DNA from: Microcella humidisoli
Lineage (GTDB): Bacteria > Actinomycetota > Actinomycetes > Actinomycetales > Microbacteriaceae
Length of the DNA: 64,000 nt
Direction: 5' to 3'
Assembly: GCF_024362325.1 (NCBI RefSeq)
Contig: NZ_CP101497.1
Coordinates: 1,860,001 to 1,924,000, forward strand
Below are positions 6,757 through 41,418 of this stretch, piece after piece. The number at the start of each line of letters is the position of its first letter. Position 1 is the stretch's first letter. Below the pieces are notes generated by a model. It ran no database searches and had not been told where the DNA came from. It saw only the letters and a list, made by a program, of their open reading frames with translations. The position numbers and the translations under genes were made by a program.

Positions 6757-7818
6757 CTACTTCTCTTCGAGCTTCGGCACGACCACCTGGTCGATGATGA
6801 TGAGGATCGACGCCGCGACCGGAATCGCGATGAGGGCGCCGAGGATGCCGAGCAGCGTGCCGCCGATGAGGGCCGCGATGACCACGACGACGCCCGGCAC
6901 CTTGACGGCGCGGTTCATGATGTTGGGGCTGAAGACGTAGGCCTCGATCTGCATGTAGACGAGGTACCAGACCGCCGCGACGATCACGGTGATCAGCGAG
7001 TCGGGGTTGACGAGCAGCTGGGTGGCCACGATGAGGATCGAGCCCGAGAGCGTTCCGACGAGCGGCACGAGCGAGAACAGGAAGGCGATGAAGGCGAACA
7101 GCGCCGGATACGCGGCGCCGATGATGCTGAGGAAGATGAAGCTCAGCACGCCGTTGATGAAGGCGAGCGTCACCTGCCCGACGACGTAGCGGCCGACGGC
7201 CTGCGCCACCTGCTCGGAGATGTCGACGAACTGCTCGCGGCGCGAGCGCGGCACGAGGCGGTACAGGGCCTTCTTGATCGAGCTCAGCGAGGCCGTGAAG
7301 TACAGGGTGAGGATGAGGATGATGAGGGCGCCGAAGACGCCCGTCGCGATCGAGACGCTCACCGACAGCACGCCACCGCCGATCTGGGCGAGGTTGTCGG
7401 GGTCGGTGAGGTAGACGAGCGCATCCTGCGCCGCAGCCCGCACGTCGAGGATCTCGATCGGGATGATGCTCTGCACCTGCGACAGCAGCTCGTCGAGCGA
7501 GGCAGGGTTGGTGACGTACTCCGTGATCTGGGTGATGAGCTTGCTCGACTGCTCGACCACGACGGGGATGATCGCGAAGACGAGGCCGGCGAAGAGCCCG
7601 AGCACGCCGAGGAGCACCGTCAGGATCGCGGCCCAGCGGGGCCACTTGCGCGACTCGAGCCACGAGATGAGCGGGTCGAGCCCGAGCGCGATGAAGATCG
7701 CCGCACCGATGTAGGTGAGGATCGTCGCGAGCGAGGCGAAGGCGCCCCCGATGAGCAGGGCGATGAGCACGCCGAGCCCGCCGAAGATGCCGAGGCGGAA
7801 CGCGTTCTGGATCTTCAC
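6757..7818 (-). CDS. AI-2E family transporter (permease)
   Basis: A 353-residue integral membrane protein of the TqsA/YdiK-like AI-2E family, with about eight helices. Helices 1-3 are at about residues 10-100, followed by a long amphipathic/soluble segment (about residues 100-150), then helices up to the C-terminal basic tail. The family stretch NGVLSFIFLSIIGAAYPALF and the ending IPVAASILIIIDQVVVPKL are recognisable. Members are proton- or sodium-coupled exporters of small molecules; autoinducer-2 transport holds only for some. GTG start with GGAGGA six bases upstream. It follows the coiled-coil DivIVA gene by 29 bases on the same strand, so the two are probably one operon. Confidence 0.9.
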   Translation of the reverse strand: MKIQNAFRLGIFGGLGVLIALLIGGAFASLATILTYIGAAIFIALGLDPLISWLESRKWPRWAAILTVLLGVLGLFAGLVFAIIPVVVEQSSKLITQITEYVTNPASLDELLSQVQSIIPIEILDVRAAAQDALVYLTDPDNLAQIGGGVLSVSVSIATGVFGALIILILTLYFTASLSSIKKALYRLVPRSRREQFVDISEQVAQAVGRYVVGQVTLAFINGVLSFIFLSIIGAAYPALFAFIAFLFSLVPLVGTLSGSILIVATQLLVNPDSLITVIVAAVWYLVYMQIEAYVFSPNIMNRAVKVPGVVVVIAALIGGTLLGILGALIAIPVAASILIIIDQVVVPKLEEK

Positions 7819-7847: not shown

Positions 7848-9506
7848 CTACTCGTCGCGGGTGGAGAGCGCCTCTGCCTGCGACAGTACCCCGCGCAGTC
7901 CCTCGAAGTAGCCCGCCACGGCGTCGCGCTCGACACGGATGCGAGCCATGCGCTCCTCCGCGTCGGCGACCATCGCGGCAGTGCGCTCCTCAGCATCGCG
8001 CAGCAGGTCGGCGGCGCGGCGCTCGGCGTTCTCGAGCACGTCCCGGGCCGTCGAGTCGGCCGATGCCCGCAGGGCCTCGGCCTCGTCGCGCGCAGACCGC
8101 TCGAGCGACTCGGCTTCGGTGCGCACGGCCGCCGCGCGCTCCTGTGCGGCGGTGAGCTGCGCGGTCGCTTCGTCGAGGTAGCGCTGGGTCTGCGCCACGG
8201 CATCCTGCTGGCGGGTCAGGTACTCGCGCTCGGCTTCCTCGCGACGAGCGGTCAGCTCGACGTCGAGGTCGATGCGGGCCTGCTCCGCCTCGCGGGTGAG
8301 GCGCGCGCGGTGCGCATCGGCGTCGTGCTGCAGCTGAGCGCGCTGCTGCTCGGCCGCGTCGGCGAGCTGGCGGCGCTGCTGCTCGACCGCGCGCTCGAGG
8401 GCCGTGGTCTGCTCAGCGGCGGCGGCGGCGTGCGCTGCGCGCTGCTCGGCGACCTCGCGCTCGACGGCGGCACGTGCCTCCGCAATCTCGCGCTCGGCGG
8501 CCGCGCGGGCATCGGCGACCTCGTGAGCGAGGGCGGACCGGGTGCTCGCGACCTCTTCGGCGAGGGCCGTGCGGGCGGACTCCAGCTCGAGCTCGAGGGC
8601 GGCGCGACCGGCGCTGATGTGCTGCTCGAGCGCGGTGCGGCTGCGGGTCTCGAGCTGCTCGACCTCGGTGCGGCGGCGCGACTCCTCGGCCTCCCACTCG
8701 GCCTGGCGGCGCGTGAGCTCGCCCTCCACCGACTCGCGAGCGGCGGCGAGCTCGGCCTCGAGGTCGGCGCGTGCATTGCGCAGGTCGTCGTCGAGCTGGG
8801 CGCGGCGCGTGGCGTCGTCGCTCTCGAAGGCGGCCCGCGCGCGCTCGGTGTCGCGGGCGAGAGCGCCCGCAGCCTCGCGGGCCTCAGCGACCTCGCGGTC
8901 GGCGACGACGCGCAGCTCGGCGAGTTCGCGCTCGGTCTCGGCCCGCAGGGCGGCCGCCTCGCGCTTGGCCGTGGCGCGCGCTTCGGCCGCCTCGGTCGCG
9001 ACGGCGCCGCGAATGGCGGCCGCCTCGCGCGTGGCCTCCTGCACGAGCGCATCGGCTTCGGTGCGGGCGCGGGCGACGGTCTCCTCCGCCTCGCGCACGG
9101 CCGACTCGGTGATCTGGGTGGCGCGCGTGGCGGCCTCGGTCACCATGCGCTCGGTGCGCTCGGCGGTCTCCGCCTGCAGGCGCTGCGCCTCGGTCTGCGC
9201 GCTCGCGCGCAGCTTCTCGGCGTCGATGTCGGCCTGGCTGATGAGGCGCGTCGACTGCTCTTCGGCGACCCGCAGCGTCTGCTCGAGCTTCGTGCCGAGC
9301 CCCGCATACGTCGGGCGGCCGACCTCGTCGAGCTCGGCCTGCAGGTCGTCGATGACTGCTTGCAGCCGCCCGACCTCCTTGGCCGCCTCCGCCCGATCGG
9401 TGTTCGCCTTGATCAGCTCGCGGCGGATCTCCTGCAGCGCCCGGTCGACGTCTTCGCGCTTGTAGCCGCGCATCTCGGATCCGAAGTCGTACTCAGTGTC
9501 TGCCAC
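7848..9506 (-). CDS. DivIVA-motif long coiled-coil protein
   Basis: A 552-residue protein. The first 45 residues carry a DivIVA-type head (MRGYKREDVDRALQEIRREL). Nearly all of the rest is uninterrupted coiled coil rich in Ala, Glu and Arg with repeated heptad/hendecad blocks (for example AEREIAEARAAVEREVAEQR). Such Scy-like or Wag31-like scaffolds organise polar growth, chromosome segregation or division in actinobacteria; this one is much shorter than Streptomyces Scy. No membrane segment is seen. GTG start at 9506 with GGGAGA seven bases upstream. Its repetitive composition generates long open shadow frames on both strands. Probably co-transcribed with the AI-2E permease. Confidence 0.85.
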   Translation of the reverse strand: MADTEYDFGSEMRGYKREDVDRALQEIRRELIKANTDRAEAAKEVGRLQAVIDDLQAELDEVGRPTYAGLGTKLEQTLRVAEEQSTRLISQADIDAEKLRASAQTEAQRLQAETAERTERMVTEAATRATQITESAVREAEETVARARTEADALVQEATREAAAIRGAVATEAAEARATAKREAAALRAETERELAELRVVADREVAEAREAAGALARDTERARAAFESDDATRRAQLDDDLRNARADLEAELAAARESVEGELTRRQAEWEAEESRRRTEVEQLETRSRTALEQHISAGRAALELELESARTALAEEVASTRSALAHEVADARAAAEREIAEARAAVEREVAEQRAAHAAAAAEQTTALERAVEQQRRQLADAAEQQRAQLQHDADAHRARLTREAEQARIDLDVELTARREEAEREYLTRQQDAVAQTQRYLDEATAQLTAAQERAAAVRTEAESLERSARDEAEALRASADSTARDVLENAERRAADLLRDAEERTAAMVADAEERMARIRVERDAVAGYFEGLRGVLSQAEALSTRDE

Positions 9507-34941: not shown

Positions 34942-35030
34942 TAGGCACGGGCGCCGTTCGGGATTCCGCCTGAGCCGCACTTGCGCCCCCGAGTTCTCGC
35001 GCCCGCGCATCTGCGCCAGGGTGGGCGCCT

Positions 35031-36470
35031 TTAGCTCGCGCCCGCGAGGGCGCGCTCGCGTTCGATGATGGGGCTCTTGCTGGGGGCGGGGATCGGTCTC
35101 TGCTCGGGGTCGATCGATCTCGGCGGGATCAGCACCAGGTCACCGGCCATCCCCGTGCGTCCCACAGATTCCCGGCGTCGTTCGAATCGCCAGCCGTTGT
35201 TGTGCAGCAGCAGGTGATGGTGCCGGCAGAGCAGCACTCCGTCGGCGAGGTCGGTCGCTCCGCCCTCGGACCAGGGGACGATGTGGTGCGCTTCTGTCCA
35301 CGATGGCGGGCGTTCGCAGCCGGGGAACCGGCATCCGCCGTCGCGCGCGGCGAGGGCGAGCCGCTGCCGTCGGGTGTAGAGCCGCGTCTCGCGGCCGAGC
35401 GCCACGACGTCACCCCGCGCGTCGATGACGATGGGGACGACCCCGGAGGAGCATCCGTGCCGGTCAGCGGTGTCGATGCTCACGGGCTCGGTCTGGCCGT
35501 CGATGCGCGCGAGGCCGCGGCGGGCGCGCACGTCGCGTTCGGCGACGATGACCTGCACGGCGGGGGAGCGCGTGCCGATCACTTCGGTCGGGGCGACGTC
35601 GCCGCCGATGCGCACGAGCTCGACGAGCGCATCGAGCGCGAGCTGCTCGGTCGTGCGCGCGTCGCGCGTGATGCGCTCAGCGCGCTCCACCTCGCCGGGG
35701 CTCACAAAACGTGGGCCGCCGCGGCGGGGCGAGGTCGCGCCGTCGACGGCGTCGCGCACGAGGGCCGCCGACTCGGGGTCGAGCAGTCCGCTCAGGCGGG
35801 TCATGCCGTCGGCTTGGCGGCTGAGGAAGAGGTAGCGCCGATCACGCAGCGACTGCTCCCGTTCGGCGACGAGTTCGGGCTGGCCGTCGAGGTCGAGCAG
35901 TGCGCGGGCGTTGCGCGCGCGCACCGCCAACTGCTCGAGCGTGAGCAGGGCTGCTTCGGCGACGAGCTGGGTCGCGGCGGATGCGAGCTGCGCTGCGGTG
36001 ACGTGGTCATCAGGCTCGCCGAGCGACCGAGCGATCGTGTCGCCCGCCTCGACGCTCACTCGCGCTTCGGAGACGGCTGCGGCGATCGGCTCGAGCCACG
36101 GGCGTGCGGGGGCGGCAGGCTCACTGTCAGTCGCCCCCAGCATCGACCCCACGCGCACGAGGGCGGCGGCGTCGCGCGCGCTCGTTCCGGTCAGATGCTG
36201 AACGAGAGCCTGCGGAGTGCGGCTGCCGAGCCGTTGAGCGAGACCGTCATGACCGAGCGAGTGGTGCGAGCGCCGGGCGATCTCGTCGGCGACGACCGCG
36301 AGGTTAGTGTCGGTGCGACGCCGCAGTTCGGCCAGACGGGACTGCAGATCGAGCAACGCCTCATCAGCCAACTGGCCCACGAGTGCCCCCGCGTAGAGCC
36401 CGAGCGCCGGCACGTCGAACATCGCGTCAGCACCCGGAGGGGTGATCGTCGCGGTGTTCGAATGAGGCAT
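35031..36470 (-). CDS. DUF222 protein with C-terminal HNH endonuclease domain
   Basis: A 479-residue protein. Residues about 15-330 are the DUF222 region common in high-GC actinobacteria, and the HNH nuclease domain is at about residues 380-440. Its motif is clear: CRFPGCERP, EAHHIVPWSEGG and LCRHHHLLLHNNGW, with paired Cys for a structural zinc and the catalytic His. These proteins occur in many copies per genome in this group and in mobile regions; DNA cleavage is likely, but the biological role is unknown. ATG at 36470, with a GAGAAT box five bases before it. No partner gene nearby. Confidence 0.9.
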   Translation of the reverse strand: MPHSNTATITPPGADAMFDVPALGLYAGALVGQLADEALLDLQSRLAELRRRTDTNLAVVADEIARRSHHSLGHDGLAQRLGSRTPQALVQHLTGTSARDAAALVRVGSMLGATDSEPAAPARPWLEPIAAAVSEARVSVEAGDTIARSLGEPDDHVTAAQLASAATQLVAEAALLTLEQLAVRARNARALLDLDGQPELVAEREQSLRDRRYLFLSRQADGMTRLSGLLDPESAALVRDAVDGATSPRRGGPRFVSPGEVERAERITRDARTTEQLALDALVELVRIGGDVAPTEVIGTRSPAVQVIVAERDVRARRGLARIDGQTEPVSIDTADRHGCSSGVVPIVIDARGDVVALGRETRLYTRRQRLALAARDGGCRFPGCERPPSWTEAHHIVPWSEGGATDLADGVLLCRHHHLLLHNNGWRFERRRESVGRTGMAGDLVLIPPRSIDPEQRPIPAPSKSPIIERERALAGAS

Positions 36471-36910
36471 GCTTCATTCTCTCGCAGGGTAGAACTGGTG
36501 TACAGAGCGTGAGTGAAACTCGTGGATAAGAAGTTCTGGGGCGGCTTGTGGAGGAGGGGCGGGGTTCGCTGGCAGCCGGGGAAAGCGCGCGAGGCAACGG
36601 ACGGCAGGGCGCCCGGAGGCGGCGTGCATTGGCTGCCGGGAACGTCGGCAGGGCGCCCAGAGGCGGCGTGCGTTGGCTGCCGGGAACGGCGGGTGGGCGC
36701 CCGGAGGCGCGGACGGCGTCAGCGATCGGGCGGGAAGGAGGAACCGGCGGGCGGGCGGCGGCCGGCGGTCGCTCTCGTGCAGGCGCCAGCGGCGGTAGGG
36801 CAAACTCCACAGGCCCGCGGACGCGCAGCACCCGCGGAGGGGCAGCCGACCCGAGAACCCGCGAGAACACCCGAGACAGAGCATCCACCCCCCTGCAAGA
36901 ATCGCTCTCG
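36471..36910. other. 440-bp repeat-rich intergenic region
   Basis: No convincing gene. It contains 44-bp tandem repeats (36602-36710), and the surrounding sequence is very rich in GGCGGG/GCCGGG strings. Open frames on both strands are low-complexity Arg/Gly/Pro and lack ribosome sites. The 3' end holds an AAGAAT box (36897-36902) for the gene at 36911. Confidence 0.6.
36602..36710. repeat. 44-bp tandem repeat, about 2.5 units
   Basis: Unit 1 at 36602-36645 and unit 2 at 36646-36689 differ at only a few positions; a partial third unit runs from 36690. Core strings are GGGCGCCC-GAGGCG and TTGGCTGCCGGGAACG. A diverged piece with TCGCTGGCAGCCGGGG precedes unit 1 at about 36567. Confidence 0.8.
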
Positions 36911-37546
36911 ATGCCGACCCGCCTGATCACCCTCGCCGCGTACACCGCGCTACCGCTCGCCGGCGTGCTGCTGCTGGGCTGGGATTGGCGCGAGATCATC
37001 CTGTTGTACTGGCTCGAGAACATCAGTCGCGGGGTGGCGATGGTGATCACGATGATCCGGTCGGCGGATGCGCCGGGCGGCGACGACCCCGCGCACATCG
37101 GCGAGCTGCGCGTCAATGGCCGGCTCGTGCGCGGCCCCGGCGCCGGGCGAGAGCTCGCGAGCTTTTTCGCCCTGCACTACGGAATCTTCACGCTCGTGCA
37201 CGGCGTCTTCGTGCTGCTGCTCGTGGCCGGCGTCTTCCTGCCAACGGCCGCCGGGCAGAGCCCCGTCAACTGGCTCACCGCCCTGCTCGTCTGGATCATC
37301 GGCGGCACCGCCCAGGTGCTCGCCGCCCGTTTCGGCCCCCTGCCCGAGCAGCGCGGGCAGCGCCTCATGCTCAGCGCCTACCCCCGCATGATCGTGCTGC
37401 ACGTGAGCGTCATCGTGGGCATCGTGCTCATCGCCACGTTCGATTGGCCCGCCGCCGCGGCTGTGCTTCTCATCGGCCTGCACGCGCTCGTCGACGGTGC
37501 GGGGTGGATGCTCTCCGCCCGCCGCGACCGAGCGCGAGCATCCTGA
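36911..37546 (+). CDS. Membrane protein, DUF6498-like
   Basis: A 211-residue protein with about five to six membrane helices. It starts PTRLITLAAYTALPLAGVLLLGWDW and continues with the diagnostic ILLYWLENISRG, the Y-W-x-E-N pattern of the DUF6498 group. HYGIFTLVHGVFVLLLVAG and a C-terminal helix pair GLHALVDGAGWML follow. Function unknown. The ATG is chosen because the 121 codons upstream in frame are low-complexity repeat DNA; an AAGAAT box ends 8 bases before it. It lies just upstream of gatB, 30 bases apart, but gatB has its own -10 box. Confidence 0.75.
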   Translation: MPTRLITLAAYTALPLAGVLLLGWDWREIILLYWLENISRGVAMVITMIRSADAPGGDDPAHIGELRVNGRLVRGPGAGRELASFFALHYGIFTLVHGVFVLLLVAGVFLPTAAGQSPVNWLTALLVWIIGGTAQVLAARFGPLPEQRGQRLMLSAYPRMIVLHVSVIVGIVLIATFDWPAAAAVLLIGLHALVDGAGWMLSARRDRARAS

Positions 37547-37564
37547 CCCCACCGTCAACGCCCG

Positions 37565-37570
37565 TAGGAT
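37565..37570 (+). promoter_or_regulatory. leaderless -10 element of gatB (TAGGAT)
   Basis: TAGGAT ends 6 bases before ATG 37577. Confidence 0.5.
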
Positions 37571-37576
37571 TGACGC

Positions 37577-39091
37577 ATGGCGCGCGCGGAACTCATGGAC
37601 TTCGACAAGGCACTGGAACTCTTCGAGCCCGTGCTCGGCTTCGAGGTGCACGTCGAGCTGAGCACGAAGACGAAGATGTTCAGCGACGCCCCGAACCCGG
37701 CTTTCAGCGGCAACGCCGTGACCGAGCCGAACACGGCGATCACCCCGGTCTGCCTCGGCCTGCCGGGCAGCCTGCCGGTGGTCAACGAGCAGGCGGTGAG
37801 CTACGCCATCTCGCTGGGCCTCGCGCTCGGCTGCCAGATCGCCGAGAGCAGCACGTTCAGCCGCAAGAACTACTTCTACCCCGACACCCCGAAGAACTAC
37901 CAGATCAGCCAGTACGACGAGCCGATCGCGTTCGAGGGCGAGGTCGAGGTCGAGCTGCCCGATGGCCGCCTGTTCACGGTGCCCATCGAGCGCGCCCACA
38001 TGGAGGAAGACGCCGGCAAGCTGACGCACGTCGGCGGGTCGACGGGCCGCATCCAGGGCGCCGAGTTCTCGCTCGTCGACTACAACCGCGCGGGCGTTCC
38101 GCTCGTCGAGATCGTGACGAAGCCCATCATCGGCGCCGAGGCCGACGCGCCCGCGCTGGGGGCGGCGTACGTCTCGCTCATCCGCGACATCGCGCGCGCC
38201 CTCGGCATCAGCGAGGCCCGCATGGAGCGCGGCAACCTGCGCTGCGACGCCAACGTCTCGCTGCGTCCGCGCGGGCAGGAGAAGCTCGGTACCCGCACAG
38301 AGACCAAGAACGTGAACTCGTTCAGAAGCGTCGAGCGCGCCATCCGCTACGAGATCCAGCGGCAGGCGGCGATTCTCGCGGCCGGCGGCGAGGTCCAGCA
38401 AGAGACCCGTCACTGGCACGAAGACACCGGCACGACCTCACCCGGACGCGTCAAGAGCGACGCCGACGACTACCGCTACTTTCCCGAGCCCGACCTGCTG
38501 CCGGTGGTTCCTGCCCCGGCGCTCATTCAGCAGCTGCGGGATGCTCTCCCGGAGGCCCCGGCCACCCGCCGACGCCGCCTGAAGGAAGAGTGGGGTTTCA
38601 GCGACCTCGAGTTCCGCGACGTCGTCAACTCAGGCCTCTTGGTCGAGGTCGACGAGACGGTCGCCGCCGGAGCTGCCCCCCAGCAGGCCCGCAAGTGGTG
38701 GACGGGCGAAATCGCCCGCATCGCCAACGCCCAGAACGCCGAGCCCGCCGCCCTGATCACGCCGGCGGATGTCGCGGCCATCGTCGCCCTCGTCGACTCC
38801 GGTGCCCTGACCGACCGTCTGGCGCGTCAGGTCGTCGAAGGTGTCATCGCGGGCGAGGGCACGCCGGCCGAGGTCGTCGAGTCGCGCGGCCTGCAGGTTG
38901 TCTCGGATGACGGCGCGCTCATCGCGGCGATCGACGCGGCGCTCGCGGCGCAGCCGGATGTTCTCGAGAAGATCCGCGAGGGCAAAGTGCAAGCGGCCGG
39001 GGCCGTGATCGGTGCCGTCATGAAGTCCATGGGCGGCAAGGCCGATGCGGCGCGCGTGCGCGAGTTGGTGCTGGAGCGGGCGCAGGCCTGA
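37577..39091 (+). CDS. gatB: Asp/Glu-tRNA amidotransferase subunit B
   Basis: Kinase/tRNA-binding subunit of GatCAB. 504 residues, normal length. Recognisable stretches: [65 protein letters not shown] and [16 protein letters not shown]. The C-terminal YqeY-like tRNA-binding tail ends [25 protein letters not shown] start, leaderless. The last 306 sense bases (38783-39088) recur 1.9 kb downstream as an incomplete copy, so the tail of this gene may have been replaced or donated during an insertion event. Confidence 0.97.
38783..39088 (+). repeat. Left copy of 306-bp direct repeat (gatB 3' end)
   Basis: Pairs without gaps with 40699-41004. About two dozen mismatches were counted by eye (about 92 percent identity), most of them at third codon positions. 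Confidence 0.9.
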
Positions 39092-39099
39092 CGCCGACC

Positions 39100-39540
39100 G
39101 TGATCGTCGAGAGCTCAGCGTCGCTCGTCATTACGAGTTCGACAATGACAGTCGAGCAGATCACGGAGAAGCTGGGCATCGAGCCGGCGGCCAGTCGCAA
39201 TACTGGTGACCCACACGGTGCGCGCCGGCCAGAGGCGAGCGGAGTCGTCGTCCAGCGCACGGCACGCGAGACCTTCTGGCGGCTCGACTCCGGCGAGGGT
39301 CGTGACACCGACTCGTCTAGCAGCCTGGTCGCGCTGGTCGATCTTCTGCGTGACAAGCGCGACAACCTCGCGTCGCTCAGACCGATGTGCACCACGACCA
39401 TCATCTGGGGCGGCTTCAGCGATAGCGACCAAGGCGGGTTTGTGTTCCCGGCCGCACTGCTCGATGAACTCGGCGCGCTCGGGTGCGACCTGCACGGCAC
39501 TGCGTATCTGAGTGAAGGCGAGTCCGCTGGTGAGCTCTGA
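39100..39540 (+). CDS. DUF4279-like protein of unknown function
   Basis: A 146-residue cytoplasmic protein. The pattern VESSASLVITSS near the start, then EQITEKLGIEPAAS, TFWRLDS and CTTTIIWGGFSDSDQGGFVFPAALLDELGALGCDL, matches the DUF4279 family as I recall it: a small alpha/beta protein often found singly and scattered among unrelated bacteria. Function unknown. GTG start nine bases after the gatB stop; no good ribosome site, so it may be translated from gatB read-through. First cargo gene of the islet. Lower GC than the flanks. Confidence 0.62.
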   Translation: MIVESSASLVITSSTMTVEQITEKLGIEPAASRNTGDPHGARRPEASGVVVQRTARETFWRLDSGEGRDTDSSSSLVALVDLLRDKRDNLASLRPMCTTTIIWGGFSDSDQGGFVFPAALLDELGALGCDLHGTAYLSEGESAGEL

Positions 39541-40201
39541 GAAGCGTGGTTGGCGCTCGCCCCTCTTGGTGGCTGGGCTCGCTGTACTTGTGTTCGGGGG
39601 CTTGGCTTCTCTCTTCCTCATCGCGCCGCCAGGGTCACGGGTCTACGAGTCGCGTTTCTCCATCGCACTGCTTGTCGCATCAGTCGGTGTTGTTGTGGTC
39701 GTGGTCGCGGTGTGGCTCCTTCGGCCTGGAAGCTGGTACCTAGGACGACTTGCGGCGCTCGACCAAGAACTCTCGCGGCTGGTTGGTGAGCCCGTCCAGC
39801 TGTTCGTCGGCACTACGAGTTTCGACGGCCTCGATGTTGCGCCGGAGATCGCAACGATCAGGAATGGCCGCCGCTCCATCTGGCGGTGCGCGGTTGGCCC
39901 CCGTGGCGTCGCAATCGGCCGCCCCGGCAATGTTCCGCGGTGTGTCGTGGTGTCCGATGTCAGCGATGAGGTAACGGTCGAGGTTGGCGGTCCAGGAGGA
40001 GGCCCCCTTGCCTGGCGAAATGAAGTGACCCCCCAACTACTCATGCGCATCGTGAGACCGTCGGGCACCCTCACGATCACCTGGGACAGGCTCGTGAGCC
40101 CCAGCCGCGGAAAGTCAGTGCGCGACGTCAACGAGGTGGCCGAGCTCGTCACCCAGCTAACCGCCGTGCTTGGGGCCAGAAGCGCTGAGCCTCCGGCCTA
40201 G
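39512..40201 (+). CDS. Two-helix membrane protein, unknown function
   Basis: A 229-residue protein with two adjacent helices (LLVAGLAVLVFGGLASLFLI and ALLVASVGVVVVVVAVWLL, residues about 18-70) and a cytoplasmic domain of about 155 residues with beta-strand alternation (ATIRNGRRSIWRCAVGPRGVAIG and PSGTLTITWDRLV). No family recognised. It overlaps the end of the DUF4279-like gene; GTG 39512 gives a 29-base overlap and GTG 39530 an 11-base overlap, and the sequence does not decide between them. The overlap implies co-translation of the pair. AT content higher than in neighbours. Confidence 0.65.
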   Translation: MKASPLVSSEKRGWRSPLLVAGLAVLVFGGLASLFLIAPPGSRVYESRFSIALLVASVGVVVVVVAVWLLRPGSWYLGRLAALDQELSRLVGEPVQLFVGTTSFDGLDVAPEIATIRNGRRSIWRCAVGPRGVAIGRPGNVPRCVVVSDVSDEVTVEVGGPGGGPLAWRNEVTPQLLMRIVRPSGTLTITWDRLVSPSRGKSVRDVNEVAELVTQLTAVLGARSAEPPA

Positions 40202-40231
40202 TCCCGTCAATGGATGTCGCGCACTTAGTCG

Positions 40232-40681
40232 CTAGAACAACGCCCTAACAGCGGCTTCCTGCCGTGACCCCTCGATGCGCCGAACCTCTAAGTCGCGAGC
40301 GACGACCTCGATGACCTGTTCCTTGGCGAGAACAACGTGATGCACGAGGTCAGCGAACCGGCGTGAGTCGTGCTGCGGGTGCACGCTGTTCTGCTTCTCG
40401 AGCATCGCGACCAGCTCGCTGTTGCTCACCTCACCAATCCACACGACGTCCTCAAGGCCCTTGCCATACAAGCGATGCCCCGAGATTGCTTCGTCGTTCG
40501 GGCCGCCTATCGAGCTGTAGTGAGTCCCGGTCCAGACCAGCATGACCGTGCGTTGGTCGGTGTCGTCCACTCGGGGTCTCAGTGCAAGCGCTGCGCCCCT
40601 GTCGTCTGCGACGAGCACCGCGTCCGGGTCGTTCGGATCCCACACAACGCCGAGGTCGACGGCAACAACTTTCTCGGACAT
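40232..40681 (-). CDS. Hypothetical protein, unknown function
   Basis: A 149-residue cytoplasmic protein with no recognised domain. Visible features: an acidic N-terminus ([20 protein letters not shown]), a Trp-centred strand [20 protein letters not shown], then [28 protein letters not shown], and a His-rich segment [18 protein letters not shown], followed by a basic C-terminus. ATG 40681 lies 6 bases after a TAACGT -10 element (40688-40693, minus strand), so it is leaderless. The -35 region of that promoter lies inside the truncated gatB copy. Converges with the membrane-protein gene 30 bases away. Third islet gene. Confidence 0.65.
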
Positions 40682-40687
40682 GGCCTC

Positions 40688-40693
40688 ACGTTA
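40688..40693 (-). promoter_or_regulatory. leaderless -10 element TAACGT
   Basis: Read on the minus strand, it ends 6 bases before ATG 40681. It sits six bases from the right end of the islet. Confidence 0.4.
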
Positions 40694-40698
40694 GTGCA

Positions 40699-41007
40699 GT
40701 CGCCCTCGTCGACTCCGGTGCCCTGACCGACCGTCTTGCGCGTCAGGTCGTCGAGGGCGTCATCGCGGGGGAGGGCACCCCTGCTCAGGTCGTCGAGTCG
40801 CGCGGCCTGCAGGTCTTCTCCGACGACGGCGCCCTGATCGCGGCGATCATTGCGGCGCTCGCGGCGCAGCCGGATGTTCTCGAGAAGATCCGCGACGGCA
40901 AAGTGCAGGCGGCCGGAGCCGTGATCGGTGCCGTCATGAAGTCGATGGGCGGCAAGGCCGATGCGGCTCGCGTGCGCGAGTTGGTCTTGGAGCGGGCGCA
41001 GGCCTAG
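40699..41007 (+). pseudogene. Truncated second copy of the gatB 3' end
   Basis: Encodes the complete C-terminal GatB/YqeY-like tail from [18 protein letters not shown] to LVLERAQA and a TAG stop, but lacks the catalytic part (about 400 residues) and any start codon at its left edge. Most differences from the intact gene are synonymous; the clearest amino-acid changes are Ile for Asp in [12 protein letters not shown] and Gln for Glu in GTPAQVV. The reading frame is unbroken, which fits a recent event or an incoming gatB tail that displaced the resident one. Confidence 0.88.
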
Positions 41008-41094: not shown

Positions 41095-41418
41095 GTGCGA
41101 GCATCCGCAGACGACACCATCACCTACGACTTCACGGCAGAGCTCTACGAGTGGACCGGCCCCGCCGCCTGGCACTTCGTCACCGTGCCCGTCGCCATCA
41201 GCGACGAGATCGACGCGCGCACCTACGGCCTCACGAACGGGTTCGGCAGCGTGCGGGTGCGCGTGCGCATCGGTGGCAGCGAATGGGCGACGAGCCTGTT
41301 CCCCGACGCGAAACTGCAGGCCTACGTCCTGCCGGTGAAGAAGGCCGTGCGGCAGGCCGAGGCGCTGATCGCCGGCGATGAGGCACGTGTGCACATCGAA
41401 CTGGTCGACGTCTCGTGA
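41095..41418 (+). CDS. DUF1905 family protein
   Basis: A 107-residue protein. The typical DUF1905 start YDFTAELYEWTGPAAWHFVTVP is followed by FGSVRVRVRIGGSEWATSLFPD and the ending VLPVKKAVRQAEAL with VHIELVD. The family is a small beta-barrel of unknown function, often next to YdeI-type or DUF1697 proteins. GTG 41095 is set by the -10 box 6 bases upstream. Overlaps the DUF1697 gene by four bases, so they form a translationally coupled pair. Confidence 0.85.
   Translation: MRASADDTITYDFTAELYEWTGPAAWHFVTVPVAISDEIDARTYGLTNGFGSVRVRVRIGGSEWATSLFPDAKLQAYVLPVKKAVRQAEALIAGDEARVHIELVDVS

Follow-up and report, generated by a model that had tools for sequence, protein, structure and literature searches.

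In this work, we describe an islet of three genes behind gatB in a 64,000-nucleotide (nt) stretch of Microcella humidisoli DNA (contig NZ_CP101497.1, positions 1,860,001 to 1,924,000 of the forward strand; hereafter the window, with positions counted from its first letter). The islet is followed by a second, start-less copy of the gatB 3′ end, and such displaced gatB tails recur behind gatB in other genomes of the genus. On balance, we are inclined to see in the islet a single insertion event at a cargo hotspot that is free of integrases and starts behind the gatB stop codon, where one-sided insertions would combine homologous pairing at gatB with an illegitimate join at the far end.

In the window, the full-length gatB gene (37577..39091, plus strand, 504 amino acids (aa), with matches to GatB_N and GatB_Yqey) is the left anchor of the hotspot and ends with TGA at 39089-39091. 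Its codons 403-504 (38783..39088, plus strand) form the proximal tail copy, which aligns without gaps with positions 40699-41004, showing 24 mismatches over 306 nt (92.2% identity), in agreement with the about two dozen mismatches counted by eye in the original prediction, which had been made from the letters of this DNA. The displaced tail (40699..41007 including the stop codon, plus strand), identified by this alignment and by comparison with relatives, was said to lack a start and about 400 codons while retaining its frame and stop; indeed, codons 1-402 are gone, and the frame runs to a TAG at 41005-41007. The mismatches were correctly described as mostly synonymous, given that 18 of the 22 differing codons are silent and four are not. 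When the genome (a single contig of 2.65 Mb) was searched, the two tail copies were the only strong matches (E 3e-158 and 2e-125), the three further gatB-tail matches being fragments of 31-51 nt with E of at least 1e-4. A chance origin of the repeat is excluded, and misassembly is unlikely because the copies are 8% different. Between them lies the islet proper (39092..40698, 1607 nt), whose GC content of 0.640 is below that of gatB (0.694) and of the downstream DNA (0.702). The domain search found no recombinase domain among the three islet proteins, so that the description of a lower-GC 1.6-kb segment with three genes and no integrase, placed behind an intact gatB and ahead of a start-less tail, was accurate. 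ARAGORN found no tRNA gene in the window.

The comparison with relatives clearly showed that the DNA behind gatB is a recurrent site of cargo. The genus set comprised 26 genomes, with the genome of the window denoted G000; 24 of them had a gatB match, and the region behind gatB was read in all 24 (in G024, only the gatB tail was on the contig). The first gene to the right of the window's scar that is common to many relatives is a DUF1905 gene (41098..41418, plus strand, domain match), found downstream of gatB in 15 of the 24 regions. The commonest neighbour is a NERD-UvrD helicase gene convergent to gatB (16 regions, of which G008, G014 and G019 have helicase matches as fragments only). From the gatB stop to DUF1905, the distance varies from 1577 to 11607 nt across the 14 genomes where both ends were measured, and in 13 of these the interval has a lower GC content than gatB, G004 being the exception. 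The cargo families between the same flanking genes differ among relatives, as in an integrase-free hotspot. Tyrosine recombinases (PF00589) and serine recombinases (PF00239), both searched in all 26 genomes, are present elsewhere, and none was located in the gatB intervals when the places were compared by eye. Transposases of Mutator-family insertion sequences (IS) occur in the intervals of G003, G007 and G009.

The cargo is often anti-phage or defence-like, and known defence genes are found among the chosen proteins tested, as in a defence hotspot. Thus, G008 carries TIR/ThsB-like, IrrE-like and DUF4411 genes and a type IV Mrr enzyme; G007, a BglII-type endonuclease, whose cluster is also represented in G023; G015, Fic; G019, a DUF4011-helicase-nuclease (PADLOC PDC-S37); G020, AAA_13 (PDC-S06); G024, HEC-04; G021, GmrSD_N; and G003, a Pycsar TM-effector domain. 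Several chosen cargo proteins had no family match in Pfam. The Pfam search covered 30 and then 10 chosen proteins of the 311 called open reading frames (ORFs) of the genus regions, flanking genes included, and PADLOC was run on 20 chosen proteins; the codon-usage caller may miss low-GC cargo, and the 223-aa ORF of the window was not called as such.

The closest relatives, G018 and G019 (97% GatB identity), have no second gatB tail, so that the duplicated arrangement is not shared by all relatives. A dehydrogenase gene on the other strand ends 5 nt behind gatB in G018, and 8.1 kb of other cargo follows gatB in G019. Relatives thus carry cargo directly behind their own gatB. In three genomes (G000, G006 and G009), the gene called first in the cargo is on the gatB strand and starts within 20 nt of the gatB stop, so that a possible benefit of this site is transcription that runs on from gatB into the cargo. 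The search for other cargo at the gatB 3′ ends of relatives, proposed as a check in the original prediction, thus gave a varied assortment, and the view that gatB is unusual as a landing site finds no support here, as the site is used recurrently in the genus and has examples in other genera.

To search for gatB scars, the full-length gatB genes of 19 genomes served as queries, and a piece was accepted if at least 10 queries supported it. The search yielded nine gatB pieces downstream of gatB in 8 of the 24 regions (G000, G003, G007, G009 with two, G010, G014, G020 and G024). All of them derive from nt 909 onward of 1515, i.e., from the last 40% of gatB. In the seven scarred regions among the 23 with an upstream gatB, every piece lies on the strand of gatB and not more than 3.2 kb from its stop; G024 has no upstream gatB, and as the orphan tail itself set the orientation of this region, strand and distance are uninformative there. 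In G009, both pieces abut a Mutator-family IS and overlap by a few nt; the IS probably divided what had been a single tail. The left borders of the genus scars differ between genomes, with positions spread between roughly -607 and -188 nt ahead of the gatB stop. An intact gatB followed by new DNA and a remnant in the same direction is the anatomy expected of a product of homology-facilitated illegitimate recombination.

Several controls were applied in the 24 regions. Reversed gatB queries gave one weak match and codon-shuffled gatB none. Among the 236 ORFs with a length of 450 nt or more in these regions, the non-self matches with E <1e-10 belonged just to gatB (seven genomes), the helicase (G007 and G008) and an IS pair (G007). 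With the partner gene gatA as a control, no truncated local copy was found in 24 genomes, there being no second match within 20 kb on the contig. Minus-strand gatB matches in G001 and G005 (one query each, E ~1e-5), a match in G006 (E 8e-5) and weak gatB self-matches in G000 and G004 (E ~4e-5) were dropped as noise. The tail-scar anatomy is real, recurrent and controlled.

The opposite side of the hotspot bears mirror scars. The 3′ end of the NERD-UvrD helicase gene faces gatB, and extra or orphan C-terminal helicase pieces were found in four genomes (G007, G008, G014 and G019). In G007, gatB is followed by the BglII-type gene, a gatB piece, an IS, a displaced helicase tail, a DUF7002 gene with an unknown gene, and the main helicase gene, which is interrupted by a second IS. 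For the displaced helicase tail of G007, identity reaches 98.0% with the G023 gene (over 446 nt) and 92.8% with that of G021, vs. 90.0% with the own gene over the matching 190 nt; between the gatB tails of G007 and G023, identity is 93.9%. The own helicase copy of G007, being interrupted, may be decaying.

Outside the genus, the scar pattern is sparse, while within it the pattern is common. The family sample comprised 398 genomes, 390 of them with a gatB match, and at most three candidates were scored per genome, so that the family counts are lower bounds. More than one gatB match was found in 22 genomes outside the genus, of which 21 were rechecked (G037 was left out). Clear downstream gatB tails are present in at least four genomes (G057, G250, G302 and G403). 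G034 and G191 have weak tails, at 31-37% identity, and the remaining rechecked genomes look like split genes, contig ends, and distant or full-length other matches. In G302, two successive gatB pieces precede the convergent helicase, i.e., the tails are stacked, and in G057 an AbiEii/DUF6036-like gene and a helix-turn-helix gene lie between gatB and the tail, with the helicase following. We also analysed 80 named loci. Those with a downstream flank of 1.5 kb or more, 74 in number, were searched against themselves at the DNA level, which revealed short repeats of the gatB end in two of them, 38 nt in L006 (Homoserinibacter) and 49 nt in L044 (a Micrococcales metagenome-assembled genome), the latter extending by eye to 90 nt with 89 matches and looking recent. 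The L044 repeats, at 7446-7535 and 8820-8909, comprise the gatB end and 29 nt past the stop and enclose about 1.3 kb with no evident recombinase.

How could such scars arise? The mechanism that we favour is plausible but unproven. Linear DNA of a relative would bring the end of its gatB together with the genes behind it, and this incoming gatB end would pair with the resident gatB via RecA. The other end would be joined illegitimately inside the resident gatB tail, as in homology-facilitated illegitimate recombination, thereby producing an intact, possibly hybrid gatB, then the new cargo, and then the start-less old tail, which would decay. The helicase, acting as an anchor from the opposite side, would give the mirror picture, and later rounds would stack, as may have happened in G302 and G007. 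Since ComEC (PF03772) is widespread in the genus (21 of the 26 genomes, including all 19 good ones), DNA uptake is conceivable there.

A 1391-nt cassette that includes a GNAT gene and is located downstream of gatB in both G014 (L121) and G019 (L117) supports lateral movement. It is 93.1% identical between the two genomes, whose gatB genes share no more than 85% identity and each cluster with those of other genomes. In both genomes the cassette adjoins helicase tail pieces. Lateral exchange of a cassette between clades is thus supported for this one pair.

The claim of the original prediction that the second tail of the window came from a related strain fared less uniformly. In terms of identity, G018 (94.1%) and G019 (92.6%) are nearer to the displaced tail than the own gatB (92.2%) is, so that the two copies are not each other's closest match by this measure, and to this extent the claim stands. 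The tree places both window tails in the G000/G018/G019 clade (support 99/98), and the approximately unbiased (AU) test leaves them as possible sisters (p 0.269), so that a firm claim of a foreign second tail had to be given up: the identity is suggestive, and the tree does not support it. Of the 24 differing sites, there are 10 where G018 and G019 both match the proximal copy and 8 where both match the displaced one. Sites that otherwise do not vary in the genomes compared have changed in the displaced copy only (V to F, D to I), as would be expected of a decaying copy. The split of the window tails would be of about the same time as the split from G018. Taken together, a foreign origin of the displaced tail seems likely, and the tree cannot separate it from an old local duplication.

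A local duplication of the gatB tail, with the cargo between the copies arriving separately, is in our estimation improbable. A local duplication would place the split of the two window tails at roughly the age of the split from G018, yet G018 and G019 are single-tailed. The G014 piece is 93.7% identical to G000 and 83.9% to its own gatB (over 95 nt only), and the displaced helicase tail of G007 is nearer to G023 than to its own gene. Likewise, in the seven scarred genus genomes that have their own gatB, the own gene is never the best match to the piece, though often by little, the margin being small in G009 and G020. Several results weigh against our reading, and those on the copies themselves speak for duplication. 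Besides the AU result for the window tails, the same test keeps the own and displaced helicase copies of G007 as possible sisters (p 0.137), and the own and displaced gatB tails of G009 pair weakly in the tree (84/35). In other genera, the own gatB is the best match for five of six remnants; comparators are few there, and these remnants fit either origin. Moreover, no clear donor tract, i.e., a drop in identity, was seen along gatB in sister pairs, and in the 80 named loci the protein search detected no additional piece of gatB, with the helicase and DUF1905 both absent from the available flanks, so that the pattern is concentrated in this genus and a few others.

The original prediction had proposed the integration of a circular molecule, and a non-replicating circle that bears a gatB tail and cargo and enters through a single RecA-mediated crossover within gatB, as in Campbell-type integration, would yield the same anatomy, with direct gatB tails around the cargo and gatB whole. 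General recombination would be enough for this, which fits the lack of recombinase genes in the intervals. Nevertheless, we give such a circle a low probability. As the left borders vary, each case would demand a circle of its own, in which the gatB piece was cut at another place; the domain search of the islet proteins showed nothing resembling a replicon; and relatives carry cargo directly behind their own gatB, so that chromosomal DNA suffices as a donor. In other words, nothing points specifically to a circle, and none is needed.

Gene 3′ ends are common targets of integrative elements. A classical element with an attachment (att) site in the gatB 3′ end and an integrase since lost would accord with this and with the 90-nt direct repeat of L044 that runs past the gatB stop, and is nonetheless very unlikely, since left borders that differ between genomes argue against one att site, the genus intervals contain no tyrosine or serine recombinase, and the helicase tail is scarred too. 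A single att site in gatB was rejected on the first two of these grounds. A block of identity on the left edge of the window repeat was likewise rejected as a preserved att core; it is equally identical in G018 and reads as conservation.

A broader and rather doubtful idea may be put forward tentatively. The gatB gene and the helicase gene would together make a recombinase-free docking platform for defence genes, at which arrivals push older cargo outward and leave scars, and the scars, as direct repeats, would in turn serve as RecA handles for the excision of cassettes or their swapping between species. Such a platform would be integron-like, though driven by ordinary homologous recombination, and would preserve its history in layers.

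As for the islet genes themselves, the first is a DUF4279 gene (39100..39540, plus strand; Pfam PF14106, E 2.8e-11; no PADLOC match) that starts 9 nt behind the gatB stop. The second, known from the ORF list and from relatives, encodes 223 aa (39530..40201, plus strand, with a GTG start at 39512 or 39530); by eye, its product looks like a membrane protein, with two hydrophobic stretches close to the N-terminus. Its relatives occur in 4 of the 26 genus genomes (G000 itself, G009, G016, where it is broken, and G020), each within ~0.7 kb of the gatB stop, and in G009 and G020 a gatB piece lies closely behind the relative; a large protein search returned just four relatives besides the protein itself. 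The third gene, a 149-aa ORF on the minus strand (40232..40681), had no family above the cut-off in the family search and no relative in the genus search. None of the three islet genes matched PADLOC. In G302, which belongs to another genus, a relative of the DUF4279 protein (38% identity) is encoded ~1.9 kb beyond the helicase gene.

The other side of gatB is variable as well. The gatA-gatB gap of the window (34942-37576) measures 2.6 kb and contains a DUF222-HNH gene on the other strand, a DUF6498 gene, and tandem 44-nt units at 36602-36733 (starts at 36602, 36646 and 36690). Among the genus genomes with both genes on the same contig, the gatA-gatB spacing is 0.7-4.3 kb in 12 and within ~50 nt in nine.

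The scarred gatB site may be a readable record of how a hotspot is built. If our reading is true, the displaced tails of flanking genes are datable and polarised marks of single insertion events, and a comparison of strains could test one-sided insertion vs. double crossover. A simple search rule follows: start-less tails of core genes are sought just downstream of the same gene, and the DNA between is taken as gained cargo. In the open-licence literature, we found nothing on the gatB locus as an insertion hotspot or island integration site, on Microbacteriaceae defence hotspots, or on a defence hotspot combined with illegitimate recombination.

Several known systems resemble parts of this picture. 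Homology-facilitated illegitimate recombination, with a homologous anchor at one end and an illegitimate join at the other (PMC3240628, PMC5361080, PMC2884548), predicts what is found here, namely an intact anchor gene, new DNA and a displaced remnant; it is known from experiments and from other loci, whereas here it is deduced from sequence only and concerns a housekeeping gene. For the orphan immunity-gene arrays of the Vibrio cholerae type VI secretion system, the authors propose the same kind of recombination (PMC5361080). As in our case, a new module is placed beside a fixed anchor, the old 3′ module is moved outward, and the rounds can stack; in contrast, the displaced immunity gene is thought to be kept by selection, while the gatB tail looks useless and decaying and the cargo is mixed defence. 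Many hotspots of gene gain lack integrases, with recombination at the flanking core genes (PMC5635113). They share with the gatB site a variable cargo between common genes, the absence of a recombinase and the suspected role of housekeeping recombination, but the model proposed for them is a double crossover, which leaves no displaced tails. A variable defence locus is described in Streptococcus suis (PMC5398294). In Pseudomonas aeruginosa, the core defence hotspot cDHS1 likewise has fixed flanking core genes and a changing defence cargo that is not obviously part of a mobile element, and how such hotspots are built was left to future work (PMC10250203); it belongs to another phylum and has other flanks, and displaced tails of the flanking genes are without mention in the available portion of that paper. 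In the gatB hotspot, two known kinds, the integrase-free hotspot and the displaced orphan module, meet in a form that keeps its scars.

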